This document shows, piece after piece, positions 10,337 through 15,429 of a stretch of 33,352 nt of DNA. Below the pieces are notes generated by a model, which worked only from the letters and a program-made list of their open reading frames with translations, was not told the origin of the DNA and ran no database searches. Made by a program: the position numbers and the translations under genes. This DNA is from Verrucomicrobiales bacterium (GTDB lineage Bacteria > Verrucomicrobiota > Verrucomicrobiia > Limisphaerales > UBA1100). Positions within the stretch are counted from its first letter, which is position 1. Each line of letters starts with the position of its first letter. The stretch lies in assembly GCA_005809105.1 (NCBI GenBank), contig SYLI01000084.1:1-33352 (forward strand), in the 5' to 3' direction.

Positions 10337-11362
10337 TCACTCGTAGAGCTTGGCCGCGCTGGGCAGACGTTCGCCCAGCTTGTTGGCCAGCGAGACGCCA
10401 TGCGCGCGATATCGCGCTTGGTTTCCAAAGGTGGAAGTCTTGATCTGGACGAGCAGCGCGGCGATGACCTTGCCATTGACGTCGCGGATGGCGGCGGCGA
10501 CGTGGGCAATCTCGCCCTCAATCGTGGCGGTGCTCTCGCCCCCGGCAAGCAGTTTGGCGGCCGAGTCGCGTGCAGGTTTGCCCACTTCCTTGGGCGATGT
10601 GCTGGCGACAATCTCGGCGGTTTTCTTGCCGGCGGGAATGGCGGCCAGGCTCAATTCCACCACATCGGTGCTGGCCTGCATGGCGTCCTCCAGGGCTTGC
10701 TGCGCGAGCGTGGGAGGCTTGCCCACGGAAACATCGAGGATCTGGCAGGTGGTGTCCGCCTGGGTCCAGAAGCCGATTTTTCCGGGGCGCGACTCTCCCA
10801 AAGTCAATTCGCCATAGGCGATGCCATTCACGGTGAGGTACATCAACGGCCCCCGCACGATGAGGGCAAATTCCACCCAGCCGTCGGGGCGGGCGGCGGC
10901 CTTGGCGTCCATTCCGTTCTGGAGTTTTCCATTCTCAAAGTAGGCGATGCGAACCTGGGCTGGATCACGGCGGACTGCCGTGATGTAAAAATTCCGGTCG
11001 TCCTTGTGGGCGAAGAGCAGTCCGGCGGCGGGTGCGGTCTTGCCGCCCACGATGCGGATGCGGGCTTTGAAAAGCAGATCGCCAAATTCCCGGGTGTCGA
11101 GCACCAGCGCCGGGAAATGGGCGGCGTCGGTTTGGTTGCCCGAATGCACGAGCGCCTTGCGCCGGAGCGTCTTGTTGGGATTGAGCAAACTGGGAAGCTC
11201 AATCTCGGAAATTTTCCAGCCGCCGGCCGCCCCCGTTCCGGCAGAGAAGGCGCGGAAGCCCGGCGGGGTCTTGCCGGCCGGCAGTAAATCCCAAGCGAAG
11301 GGGTTTTCCTGCGCCGCAAGGGCCAGCGGCAGCACCGCAAGGATGGCCAGGGGCACGCGCAT
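10337..11362 (-). CDS. Exported LamG-like protein with a Cache-like C-terminal domain
   Basis: A 341-aa secreted protein with a signal peptide (MRVPLAILAVLPLALAAQ). Residues ~20-210 look like a concanavalin/LamG or DUF1080-type sandwich (AAGLLFAHKDDRNFYITAVRRDPAQVRIAYFENGK; WVEFALIVRGPLMYLTVNGIAYGEL; GKIGFWTQADTTCQILDVSV), which usually binds sugars. Residues ~215-341 resemble a Cache/PDC sensor fold by eye (EIVASTSPKEVGKPARD, HVAAAIRDVNGKVIAALLVQI). No transmembrane helix or kinase part follows, so it would be a free periplasmic protein. The ATG at 11362 begins four bases after the ilvB stop, so it is in the ilvB transcript. Confidence 0.7.
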   Translation of the reverse strand: MRVPLAILAVLPLALAAQENPFAWDLLPAGKTPPGFRAFSAGTGAAGGWKISEIELPSLLNPNKTLRRKALVHSGNQTDAAHFPALVLDTREFGDLLFKARIRIVGGKTAPAAGLLFAHKDDRNFYITAVRRDPAQVRIAYFENGKLQNGMDAKAAARPDGWVEFALIVRGPLMYLTVNGIAYGELTLGESRPGKIGFWTQADTTCQILDVSVGKPPTLAQQALEDAMQASTDVVELSLAAIPAGKKTAEIVASTSPKEVGKPARDSAAKLLAGGESTATIEGEIAHVAAAIRDVNGKVIAALLVQIKTSTFGNQARYRAHGVSLANKLGERLPSAAKLYE

Positions 11363-11365
11363 CAA

Positions 11366-13231
11366 TCAGTAGATCATGTCGGCGACAGTCCGGCCGGCGG
11401 GGATGAAGGGCAGGACGTGCTCGGTGTAGGGGGTGATGACGTCCAGCACGTAAGGCTCTTCGGAGTCGAGCATGCGCTGCACGGCGGCGCGCAAATCGCT
11501 CTTGGCGGCCACGCGCTCGCAGGGCACCTCGAAGCCCTTGCAGATGGCGACGTAGTCGGGGTAGATGGCGCGCATGTTCCTGGGGTCGCCCAGATACGTG
11601 TGGCCGCGGTTGCCGCCGTAAAAACGATCCTCCCACTGCACCACCATGCCCAGATGCTGGTTGTTGAGGATGATGGCCTTGGCGGCAATCTTCTCAATGC
11701 GCGCCGTCGCCAGCTCCTGCACGTTCATGAGGAAGGATCCGTCGCCGTCAATGTCCACCACCTGGCGGTCGGGCCGCGCCACCTTTGCGCCGAGCGCGGC
11801 AGGGTAGCCGTAGCCCATCGCGCCCAGCCCGGCACTGGTGAGGAACTGGCGCGGAAATTTGTAGCGGTACCACTGGCCGGCCCACATCTGATGCTGGCCC
11901 ACGCCCGTGGTGATGATGGCCTCGCCCGCCGTGAGCTCGTAGAGCACCTCGAGCACATGCTGCGGCATGATGGCCTCCTGTTCGCGGCCCGCCAGCAGAT
12001 CGCGCATATGCACCGAACTGAGCACGTCCTCTTTGGCCGTGTAGCGCAGCGGCCCCTTGGCCTTCCAGCGGGCGATTTGCTCGTGCCACGCGGTGTGGCG
12101 TTTTTGCAACGGCCGGCGCGAAAGCATCCCGTTGAGCTGGCGCAACGCATAGCGGATGTCGCTGTGGATCGGCAGGTGAACCAGCTTGTTCTTGTTGTGC
12201 TCTGAACTGTCGATGTCGATGTGGACGATGGTGCCGTGTTCGCAGAACTTCTCCACCTTGCCCGTCACCCGGTCGTCAAAGCGCACGCCAAAGGCCAGCA
12301 GCAGATCCGCGCCGGGAGCCACCAGCTCCATGGGGTCGCCGGGATTGGTTCGCGGCTTAAACTCGCCGCTCACCGCCCAGTTGGCGTAGGCGCAACCGTG
12401 CATTCCCAGCCAGCGAAGGGAGAGGGGATGATCCTCCGGAAACGCGCCAACCCCCATCAGGGTTGTGGTCACCGGGATTCCGGTTGCCTCGGCAAAGGCG
12501 CGCAGCTCCTTGCTGGCCTCACCGGTGATGATGCCCCCGCCCACGTAGAGCACGGGCCGCTCGCTCTTTTCAATGAGGCCGAGCACCTCGTTGAGCGCCA
12601 CCTCGTCGGCCTTCGGCGACGGCTCGTATCCAGGCAGGTCCACCTTCTCTGGCCATACCGGCTGCGCCCGCTGCTGCTGGATGTTTTTTGGGAAGTCAAC
12701 CACCACCGGCCCCGGCCGCCCCGTTTGCGCAATGTGGAAAGCCTCTTTCACGATACGGGGGATGTCCGCAATGTCCGTGACAAGATAGCTGTGCTTGACC
12801 ACCGGCAGCGTCATGCCGAAGAAGTCGGTCTCCTGAAACGCGCCCTTGCCAATCATCGCCTGCGGCACCTGACCGGTGAGCGCAATGAGCGGCACCGAAT
12901 CCATGTACGCATCGGCGATGCCGCTTAAAAGATTGGTGGCGCCGGGCCCGCTCGTGCCCATGCACACGCCGGCTTTGCCCGTGGCGCGCGCGTAACCTTC
13001 GGCGGCAAACGCGCCGCCTTGTTCGTGGCGGGGCAGGATGGTGCGGATTTGCGTGGAGCGCGTGAGCGCCTGATGCAACTCCATGCTCGCGCCGCCCGGA
13101 TAGGCGAAAATGGTGTCCACGCCTTCGCGCTCCAGTGCCGCAACGAGAATCTCACTGCCGAGCATGGCCTTGCCGGGCCCCCGGGTTCGTGGAGAGGCTG
13201 CTGATCGTTTTTTTGTCGTTGTCTTGCTCAT
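11366..13231 (-). CDS. ilvB: Acetolactate synthase large (catalytic) subunit
   Basis: A 621-aa ThDP enzyme catalysing the first common step of valine, leucine and isoleucine synthesis. Seen are the catalytic glutamate in [22 protein letters not shown] (E70), [26 protein letters not shown], the central FAD-type domain, and the ThDP motif beginning [19 protein letters not shown] and ending [17 protein letters not shown]. This last segment is typical of biosynthetic AHAS. The N-terminal ~22 residues are a basic extension. No small subunit (ilvN) or ilvC follows; the next gene is the LamG/Cache-like one. A leader region with an attenuator precedes it. Only a weak AGG lies upstream of the ATG at 13231. 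Confidence 0.95.
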
Positions 13232-13266: not shown

Positions 13267-13302
13267 AAAAAAAGACCCACGACCGCAAAGCCAGCCGTGG
13301 GT
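13267..13302 (-). terminator. Intrinsic terminator in the ilvB leader (attenuator)
   Basis: On the minus strand an 11-bp stem (arms ACCCACGGCTG and CGGTCGTGGGT, two G-U pairs) with a six-base loop is followed by C and seven Ts (13267-13273). It stands 35 bases before the ilvB ATG and inside the same transcript, so it can only act as an attenuator or as a leaky end of the upstream unit. Confidence 0.85.
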
Positions 13303-13347
13303 GGTTGTGAAAATCGCCTAGCGGCGACGAACACCCAAGGCGTCGCC
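13295..13347 (-). promoter_or_regulatory. Alternative leader hairpins competing with the ilvB terminator
   Basis: On the minus strand GGCGACG (13341-13347) can pair with CGTCGCC (13323-13329), a perfect 7-bp hairpin at the end of the leader-peptide codons. Its 11-base loop, CCTTGGGTGTT (13330-13340), is complementary to AACCACCCACGG (13295-13306) with one mismatch and one bulge. That second partner overlaps the 5' arm of the terminator, so the two pairings exclude each other, giving a pause hairpin, an antiterminator and a terminator in the classical order. Confidence 0.65.
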
Positions 13348-13389
13348 TTGTACGACGACCCCAATTCGTGTGCGCCGCAGGTCCTTCAT
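13318..13389 (-). CDS. Putative ilv leader peptide (23 aa)
   Basis: A 23-codon frame (ATG 13387-13389, TAG 13318-13320) precedes the ilvB attenuator. The middle reads RTRIGVVVQGDALGV: codons 9-13 are ATT GGG GTC GTC GTA (Ile-Gly-Val-Val-Val), followed by Leu and Val. A ribosome stalled for charged tRNA-Val would cover the first hairpin arm (codons 15-17), freeing the antiterminator. A ribosome that reaches the stop would cover the antiterminator and let the terminator form. The valine run and the geometry are the evidence; conservation has not been checked. Confidence 0.6.
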   Translation of the reverse strand: MKDLRRTRIGVVVQGDALGVRRR

Positions 13390-13397
13390 CAGCGAGC

Positions 13398-13427
13398 ACC
13401 CTAACCCTGTTGGGCAGGCGCGGTCAA
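13398..13427 (-). promoter_or_regulatory. Predicted promoter of the ilv leader-ilvB transcript
   Basis: On the minus strand TTGACC (13422-13427), 18 bases, TAGGGT (13398-13403), then eight bases to the leader ATG at 13389. The -35 box contains the stop codon of the upstream agmatine deiminase. Transcription would begin within a couple of bases of the leader ATG. Confidence 0.45.
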
Positions 13428-14485
13428 GCCGTCTCCCCGGCGGTGGCCGGTTCCTGCTGTGTGATGCAATGAAAGGAACCCAGCCCCCAGATGAGCTCGG
13501 TGGAGTCCACTCCCAGAACCCGGCGCGTGGGGAATTGGCGCTGCAGGATGTCCAGCGCGCGCGCGTCATTGGGGTCGCGATAGGTGGGCACGAGCACGAT
13601 GCCGTTGGCGATGTAAAAGTTGGCGTAGCTGGCGGGCAGGCGCTGGCCTTCGTGTTCCATGCGGCGCGGCATGGGTAGTTCCACCACGCGCAGTGAGTTG
13701 CCGCGCCCGTCCTTCATCGCACGCAGCCGATGCAGATTTTCACGCAGCGGCTGGTGGTTCTCATCGGCCGGATCCTCCTCCACCACCGTCACCACCGTGT
13801 CGGCACTGACAAACCGCGCGAGGTCGTCCACATGCCCGTCGGTGTCATCGCCGGCGATGCCATCGCCCAGCCAAAGCACATGGGTCACCCCAAGAAAGTC
13901 CTTAAGAAAACCTTCAATCTCAGGCTTTGCCAAATGCGGATTGCGGTTGGGATTAAGCAGGCAGCTCTCGGTGGTGAGCAAGGTGCCACAGCCGTTCACC
14001 TCCAGCGCGCCGCCCTCCATCACAATGCCCGGAGAGAAGAGCGGCAGCTCGCGCAGACGGGCGACGTGCTGCGGCACAGCGTCGTCGAGATCGAAGGGTG
14101 GATACTTGTTTCCCCAGGCGTTGTAGCCCCAGTCCACCACGGCGCGGTCGCGCCGGCCATTCCGGTCACGCACGAGAAAGATCGGCCCATGATCGCGGCA
14201 CCATGGCTCGTACGCGGGGAAGTGGTGGAAGCAGATCGCCTCCAGAGGCACGCCCTCCCGCGCCAGCCGCTCGCGTACCATCGCCTCCATCTCGGCGTCC
14301 CACACGTTGATGTGGACGGCCTCGACCTGCACGAGATGGCGGATGATCGATGCGTAGACCGGAGGCACGGTGTCGTACTTCCCCGGAAAACTAATGCCCT
14401 CGGGCCTGGGCCACGTGAACCAGGTGCCCTCGTGCGGTTCCCATTCGGCGGGCATGCGGTAGCCCAGCTGCGCGGGCGTGCTCAT
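13424..14485 (-). CDS. aguA: Agmatine deiminase (peptidyl-arginine-deiminase-type)
   Basis: A 353-aa guanidino-group-modifying enzyme (PF04371) that turns agmatine into N-carbamoylputrescine and ammonia in the putrescine route. Motifs visible: MPAEWEPHEGTWFTWP at the N-terminus, EPWCRDHGPIF, GIVMEGGALEVNGCGTLLTTESCLLNPNRNP, GDDTDGHVDDLARFV with the catalytic histidine, and the nucleophile in GLGSFHCITQQEP (C340). The usual partner, N-carbamoylputrescine amidohydrolase (aguB), is not in the window. The ATG at 14483-14485 overlaps the TGA of the aldo/keto reductase by one base (TGATG), so the two are coupled. Confidence 0.93.
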   Translation of the reverse strand: MSTPAQLGYRMPAEWEPHEGTWFTWPRPEGISFPGKYDTVPPVYASIIRHLVQVEAVHINVWDAEMEAMVRERLAREGVPLEAICFHHFPAYEPWCRDHGPIFLVRDRNGRRDRAVVDWGYNAWGNKYPPFDLDDAVPQHVARLRELPLFSPGIVMEGGALEVNGCGTLLTTESCLLNPNRNPHLAKPEIEGFLKDFLGVTHVLWLGDGIAGDDTDGHVDDLARFVSADTVVTVVEEDPADENHQPLRENLHRLRAMKDGRGNSLRVVELPMPRRMEHEGQRLPASYANFYIANGIVLVPTYRDPNDARALDILQRQFPTRRVLGVDSTELIWGLGSFHCITQQEPATAGETA

Positions 14486-15429
14486 CAGGGCAAGTCCTGG
14501 CGCCGCGCGCTGGTGATGAGCTGGTACCACTGCTCCCGGGTGAGCCTGATTTCGTCCACGGCCGCGTACTCGTGGATGCGGTCGGTGCGCGTAGTGCCGA
14601 TCACGGGCACGATGCCGGCCGGGTGTTTAAGCAGCCACGCCAGCGCCACCAGCCAGCGACTGCGGCCCAGCTCCCGCGCAATGCGGTCGAGCCAGCGTTT
14701 CACGCCTCCTACGGCGTACTTTTCCTGGGCGGGCAGCACCTTTCGCGCTCCTTCGCCCAAGTGGCCACCGGCCAGAGGGCTCCATGCCATCGGCGTGATG
14801 TGCCCGGCCATGCACTGATCAAGCGAGCCGTCCTCAAGCCGGTCGAGGTGCGCAAGGCTGATCTCAATTTGGTGCACCGCAAGGGGCGTGCGCACCGCAC
14901 CCTGGAGCAGCGCCACCTGCGAGGGGCGAAAGTTGCTCACTCCAAAGTGGCGCGCCTTGCCGGCGGCCTGAAGGGCGGAAAACGCCCCCGCCACCTCGTG
15001 CGGATCCATGAGGAAGTCGGGACGATGCAGCATGAGGAGGTCGATGCAGTCCACCCCCAGCCGCCGCAGCGAGTGCTCGCAAGCCTCGGTGATGTGTTGG
15101 GCGGAAAGGTCGTATCGGTAGGGGTCTCCCTTTTCCGGCCGGTTCGCCGCGCGGATGCCGCACTTGGTTGCCAGCACCACGCGTGCGCGCATCCCTTTCA
15201 CGCGGCGCAGGGTTTGGCCCATCACTTCCTCCGACACGCCCCCGGCGTAGATGTCCGCAAGGTCAAAGAGCGTGTAGCCCGATTCGTACGCCGCGACGAT
15301 TCTGCCGATGGCCCTTTCGCGATCCTTGGCCGATGCACCTTGCGTCTCGGGCGAGCCGGCGATGCGCCAGGTGCCGTACGCCAGCCGGGATGTCTTGAGG
15401 CCGCTTGGGCCCAGCGTGATCTCCTGCAT
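14485..15429 (-). CDS. Aldo/keto reductase (YdhF-like)
   Basis: A 314-aa NADPH-dependent (beta/alpha)8 oxidoreductase. The catalytic tetrad is seen as Asp and Tyr in YTLFDLADIYAGG, Lys in VVLATKCGI and His in IDLLMLHRPDFLMDP. NADPH-binding residues are seen in VPVIGTTRTDRIHEYAAVDEIRLTREQWYQL. Substrates of this class are various aldehydes and ketones and cannot be predicted. It is the first gene of the minus-strand unit ending in agmatine deiminase. MQEITLGPSGLKTSRLAYGTWR from the ATG at 15429 is the expected N-terminus; the frame upstream of it is not needed. Confidence 0.93.
   Translation of the reverse strand: MQEITLGPSGLKTSRLAYGTWRIAGSPETQGASAKDRERAIGRIVAAYESGYTLFDLADIYAGGVSEEVMGQTLRRVKGMRARVVLATKCGIRAANRPEKGDPYRYDLSAQHITEACEHSLRRLGVDCIDLLMLHRPDFLMDPHEVAGAFSALQAAGKARHFGVSNFRPSQVALLQGAVRTPLAVHQIEISLAHLDRLEDGSLDQCMAGHITPMAWSPLAGGHLGEGARKVLPAQEKYAVGGVKRWLDRIARELGRSRWLVALAWLLKHPAGIVPVIGTTRTDRIHEYAAVDEIRLTREQWYQLITSARRQDLP

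Follow-up and report, generated by a model that had tools for sequence, protein, structure and literature searches.

Known and Probable Leader Peptide Attenuators Upstream of ilvB

In the ilvGMEDA and ilvBN attenuators of Escherichia coli, Val, Leu and Ile codons in a leader are combined with mutually exclusive RNA pairings and a terminator. Their leader ORFs have a 5′ UTR and a Shine-Dalgarno sequence, unlike the leader reported here, and their sequence is unrelated to it. The closest described system is that of Corynebacterium glutamicum ilvBNC, where transcription begins just one nucleotide away from the leader start (MTIIRLVVVTARRLP); the response to valine is lost when Val is changed to Ala, and three hairpins are in competition (PMC11857589). 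The ilvB-II motif is reported only in Corynebacterium (PMC10272879). The same source presents the ilvB-OMG and Leptospira ilvB motifs, which place before ilvB a uORF with many branched-chain codons and are suspected attenuators. In the Leptospira motif three or more Val codons follow one another, and ilvB-OMG differs from our leader in having 41 representatives in several phyla and peptides that are also rich in Thr (PMC10272879). Mycobacterium tuberculosis ilvB1 is likewise attenuated and has a uORF, with LVVI control codons, and a terminator opposed by an antiterminator, although it belongs to the Actinobacteria and its sequence and peptide are different (PMC13236596). Finally, the trpL RNA of Sinorhizobium meliloti begins with the ATG of its leader ORF and so offers a leaderless attenuator ORF (PMC7298713), but this alphaproteobacterial leader responds to Trp rather than Val, and its RNA and peptide also act in trans.

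Leader-peptide attenuation has been described mainly in Proteobacteria, Actinobacteria and some Firmicutes, and gene regulation in Verrucomicrobiota is little studied. Our search of open-access papers on Verrucomicrobia found no account of attenuation or of a leader peptide, in agreement with the original prediction, which knew of no described case for this lineage. Here we analyzed a 33,352-nt stretch of DNA from a bacterium of the order Limisphaerales (contig SYLI01000084.1), hereafter the window, in which a short leader precedes ilvB on the minus strand. We estimate a probability of about 0.92 that this leader is a valine-specific, ribosome-mediated transcription attenuator of ilvB with some Ile and Leu input; it very probably switches the gene on when valine is short. 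Such a mechanism is classical, while its order-wide version in Verrucomicrobiota seems to be undescribed and would extend leader-peptide attenuation to an order of this phylum. The design is proven in C. glutamicum ilvBNC (PMC11857589), and the likeness of this system and of ilvB-II to our locus includes the position before ilvB, a near-leaderless ORF (predicted at our locus), three Val codons in the leader, and terminator, antiterminator and, putatively at our locus, anti-antiterminator hairpins. In contrast, C. glutamicum belongs to the Actinobacteria, its leader peptides have 15–17 residues and its operon is ilvBNC; at our locus ilvB is followed by a gene that is neither ilvN nor ilvC. The two leaders are likely convergent.

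Organization of the Leader

The gene presumed to be controlled, ilvB (11366–13231, minus strand), encodes an acetolactate synthase large subunit with Pfam TPP domains, and its product scores 672.9 bits against TIGR00118 (biosynthetic acetolactate synthase large subunit; cut-off 538.35). Directly 3′ of it lies a gene (10337–11365, minus strand) whose 342-aa product has no Pfam or NCBIfam match. On the other side, an agmatine deiminase family gene (13424–14530, same strand) ends directly before the promoter. The promoter itself comprises a -35 box, TTGACC (13422–13427), and, after an 18-nt spacer, a -10 box, TAGGGT (13398–13403); it was not flagged by a promoter scan alone. Eight nucleotides past the -10 box begins a leader ORF of 23 codons and a stop (13318–13389; ATG at 13389–13387, TAG at 13320–13318), which encodes MKDLRRTRIGVVVQGDALGVRRR and is predicted to be leaderless or nearly so. 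The putative control codons are Val11-Val12-Val13 (GTC GTC GTA, 13351–13359), a run kept in relatives, within an Ile9-Gly-Val-Val-Val stretch (13365–13351) that opens with the Ile9 codon at 13363–13365.

Downstream of these codons, a perfect 7-bp hairpin (GGCGACG/CGTCGCC, 13347–13323) covers codons 15–23. Its 5′ arm is designated arm 1b (13341–13347), and its loop and 3′ arm form region 2 (13321–13342), which overlaps the end of the leader ORF and, on sequence and covariation, would be the 5′ half of an antiterminator. The hairpin loop CCTTGGGTGTT is complementary to AACCACCCACGG (13306–13295), with one bulge and one mismatch. This complement lies in region 3 (13295–13310), assigned as the 3′ half of the antiterminator from sequence, covariation and co-adaptation, which also contains the 5′ arm of an intrinsic terminator (3:4, 13267–13302). 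Sequence, covariation and a terminator scan, in which it was the strongest terminator of the region, all identify this element, which has an 11-bp stem (13302–13275) and seven Ts (13273–13267); ilvB is the next gene and starts 35 nt past the T-run. A further arm, 1a (CCTGCGGCG, codons 3–6, 13373–13381), pairs in the minimum free energy (MFE) structure of the leader with CGCCGC of region 2 (13326–13321) and beyond. Whole-leader folding was unremarkable (z = -1.25), a measure that is uninformative for a switching RNA. The promoter, leader ORF, Val codons, 7-bp hairpin, loop complement and terminator had all been predicted earlier, and each is present where it had been placed.

Conservation in Limisphaerales

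We located ilvB in 52 of 58 relatives and examined 49 upstream regions, the window's included. The same layout, consisting of a promoter, a leader ORF, a run of Val codons, an antiterminator segment over the leader end and a terminator, was found in 47 of the 49 (44 automatically and three by hand). One upstream region (L041) contains Ns and retains a partial leader only, and the element was absent upstream of a divergent ilvB with 58% identity (L050). All 44 parsed relatives have TTGACC, TTGACG or TTGACT at the -35 position, with TAnnnT-like -10 boxes at 15–20 nt spacing. In the 44 automatic cases the leader begins with ATG (34) or GTG (10), 34–41 nt past the first -35 base and 5–12 nt past the -10 box, these starts having been picked to fit promoter spacing in related genomes that are not independent. 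A Shine-Dalgarno-like motif precedes the start in only two of 47 leaders. The strict promoter-plus-start pattern (TTGAC-TAnnnT-start) occurs in 29 of the 47 regions versus a mean of 0.06 in dinucleotide shuffles, so that the arrangement, kept across the order, is beyond chance. These features suggest that the leader ORF is leaderless or nearly so, and leaderless translation is thus predicted in this lineage. The original prediction had also called the ORF near leaderless, with its start 8 nt past the -10 box, where we find it; the trait itself is not new, being known in Corynebacterium.

Evidence for Translation of the Leader

Several observations indicate that the leader is coding. Val makes up 24.6% of in-frame residues in the 47 leaders, compared with 6.7% and 3.8% when the two other frames are read and 8.4% in composition shuffles, and 44 of the 47 leaders contain a Val/Ile/Leu run of at least three (15 and 1 for the alternative frames), although these percentages and counts are somewhat biased since ORFs were chosen partly by Val content. 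Less dependent on that choice are the codon phase, common to 99.3% of aligned leader bases, and the fixed frame in which region 2 is read (TGT-CGx). Third codon positions are the most variable (0.589 versus 0.427 and 0.472), indels in the alignment are whole codons, and all four Val codons occur.

These data bear on the idea that ilvB is controlled by a riboswitch that binds a ligand or by a leader that binds a protein, the ORF being untranslated. The leader RNA is conserved and folds, and one study places ilvB under ppGpp riboswitches in some Firmicutes (PMC10272879). The codon phase, the Val runs, which are in frame and vary in their codons, and the whole-codon indels nevertheless point to translation, and outside the pairing arms the alignment shows poor conservation, unlike that of an aptamer. 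No Rfam riboswitch matched either: Rfam 15 gave no family at the gathering score in the window or in five relatives, and E-value thresholds also gave none. We consider control of this kind highly improbable. The best Rfam leader match, His_leader in one relative (L026), was rejected at 21.3 bits against the 49 required.

A different possibility is that the main role of the leader is played in trans, the terminated RNA or its peptide acting on other genes in the manner of rnTrpL and peTrpL in S. meliloti (PMC7298713). The locus is indeed predicted to give a short leaderless mRNA, and the peptide to carry a conserved Cys-Arg tail, but reading region 2 (CTTGTCG) in a fixed frame accounts for that tail, the leader in the window is without the Cys, and no trans target is known. 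Such a main role is very unlikely, and a trans role would in any case be compatible with attenuation.

Predicted Terminator, Antiterminator and Protector Pairings

Covariation was assessed in an alignment of 46 sequences (A1). For the terminator, 96.6% of cells are paired and 14 cells are changed on both sides, compared with 3.8 in shuffles. The antiterminator 2:3 (GCCGnnGGG..CTTGTCG with CGACAAG..CCCACGGC) is paired in 75.9% of cells; ten of its pairs are changed on both sides, in 29 cells versus 12.6, a count that exceeds every slid version. The native 2:3 duplex has a mean energy of -20.1 kcal/mol, versus a mean of -18.6 when arms were swapped between genomes (best of 100 swaps, -19.5), and the window's own 2:3 helix is of below-average strength (-15.4). 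An RNAalifold consensus of the leaders contained the terminator only.

Three pairings had been proposed originally, and they fared differently. The terminator and the 2:3 helix are conserved, whereas the hairpin formed by the arm in codons 15–17 (1b:2) is particular to the window copy: strong there, it is unsupported across relatives (native -5.6 versus swapped -5.4). By contrast, 1a and region 2 are co-adapted in relatives (native -8.2 versus swapped -6.3), where arm 1a comprises about leader codons 4–8 and is often CGACAAG. The window keeps the 1a:2 helix in altered sequence, GCGGCG of 1a pairing with CGCCGC of region 2 in the leader MFE. Judging from these comparisons, the order-wide protector arm is probably 1a with region 2, and not 1b. 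The original prediction had read the locus as an attenuator and had made conservation of the small ORF and of the pairings in relatives its own test; Limisphaerales have kept the Val codons and their frame, the position of the start, and the terminator and antiterminator, with covariation, and the attenuator reading stands.

Proposed Switching Mechanism

From the sequence we infer the transcription start, translation of the leader, ribosome stalling, termination and the valine response. Transcription would begin at or next to the leader start codon, so that a ribosome would load directly on the 5′ end. With ample charged tRNA-Val, the ribosome would reach the stop codon and cover region 2; region 3 would then be free, the terminator would form and transcription would end before ilvB. 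When charged tRNA-Val is scarce, the ribosome would stall at the Val codons and block arms 1a and 1b, allowing region 2 to pair with nascent region 3 and RNA polymerase to enter ilvB. Without a loaded ribosome, the terminator may stay free because region 2 is taken up by 1a (or 1b).

When full-length transcripts were folded at equilibrium with a ribosome footprint, the terminator was favored in nearly every state and in nearly all sequences, and therefore the switch must be kinetic. Other attenuators also switch kinetically. The terminator does not include the outer 2:3 helix (CTTGTCG/CGACAAG), and the two can be present together. We therefore refolded transcripts cut just before the terminator 3′ arm, given the outcome at full length. 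In these, the mean probability that the terminator 5′ arm is held by the leader was 0.62 for a ribosome placed at the first Val codon, 0.46 for one at the last, 0.0 for one at the stop codon and 0.60 without a ribosome. With the simulated ribosome at the stop codon the arm was free in 47 of 47 leaders, and with the ribosome at the first Val codon it was held in 39; in the other eight, mostly family members with scattered Val codons (for example L028–L030), the stalled state was not predicted to hold the arm with the stall codon as chosen. In this model the contrast between the stop-codon and stalled states fits attenuation, while the state without a ribosome was not cleanly predicted to terminate by cut-transcript folding.

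Specificity and Phylogenetic Spread

The terminator pattern CCCACGGCTGGNNACGGTCGTGGGTTTTT was scanned over 84,980 species genomes. It occurred in 47 places, all of them directly before ilvB on the same strand, 28–178 nt from the estimated ilvB start. Most matches fall in records titled Limisphaera, Limisphaerales, Pedosphaera or Verrucomicrobia subdivision 3, and the few titled Akkermansia, Acidobacteria or Omnitrophota look like mislabelled bins. This distribution matters for the alternative that the hairpin serves only to end transcription of the agmatine deiminase family gene, ilvB being transcribed otherwise and the small ORF being incidental. That gene does end at 13424, on the same strand and directly before the promoter, and the terminator scan rates the hairpin as a good terminator. 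Yet the element tracks ilvB and not the neighbor gene, as the 47 pattern matches before ilvB illustrate; in nearly all relatives the hairpin is separated from the upstream gene by a promoter and a Val-rich frame; and there is covariation in the 2:3 pairing, which argues against a plain terminator of the upstream gene. We give this explanation very little credence.

Searches with a covariance model (R1) agree with an attenuator that belongs to ilvB in this order. Within the class sample, the model matched 47 of the order's 52 genomes with E < 2e-10, and outside the order only one of 234 genomes (G196) came near (2.9e-10), its match also lying before ilvB. The main ilvB genes inspected in other orders of the class were without the element. 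The phylum sample gave nothing strong outside the class, the best match (1.7e-5) being a plain terminator, and in the window's own genome there was no second credible copy (next match, E = 0.57). Above an E-value of about 1e-4, matches were relied on only where the locus had been inspected, and weak matches outside the order (L139–L142, L244) include plain terminators after other genes. One weak match in another class of the phylum (G381, L252) shows an Ile/Val/Leu-rich leader and a terminator before ilvB. The 47 leaders and the covariance model provide a ready RNA family for annotation.

Similar Leaders Upstream of Other Genes

Before leuA in the window's own genome (C22, about 10830–10958, minus strand), TTGACC-TAGGGT is followed by a GTG-started leader, MSGKLNLRLALGDALPLAGEAVGF, and then a terminator. 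Many relatives have leuA leaders (L199, L203, L206, L209, L211, L213–L217, L219, L221 and L222), for example MNCTLNLRLSLRDALLLSCAAVGF, and in several genomes of the window's family none was found. By its sequence, the leuA leader appears to be an analogous leaderless design with Leu in place of Val, and its reuse means that codon choice may set the amino acid sensed.

In four genomes from other orders of the class (L133, L134, L138 and L143), a Val-rich leader of the same layout and a terminator precede a class I SAM-dependent methyltransferase gene, identified by Pfam for L133, L134 and L138; metA adjoins it in L133 and a metF-like gene in L143. In another order, an ilvB paralogue with 45% identity (L198, G086:C1, about 141305–141419, minus strand) is preceded by a leaderless leader encoding MQRKHNPTSVHQVLVGLVVLVVSLAP; before the main ilvB of that genome (L171) the leader was not seen.

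It is conceivable, at somewhat less than even odds, that Verrucomicrobiota evolved a leaderless attenuator family of their own, in which region 2 is contested by 1a, a local 1b and region 3, and in which the control codons were changed (Val for ilvB, Leu for leuA and, in other orders, Val for the SAM-dependent methyltransferase). If this is true, leaderless initiation would set ribosome-polymerase coupling. In the window's own genome, the pattern TTGACCN{16,19}TANNNTN{6,11}ATG matched five times, each time at the start of an ORF, namely that of the ilvB leader or of one of four long genes; leaderless mRNAs may thus be common in this lineage.
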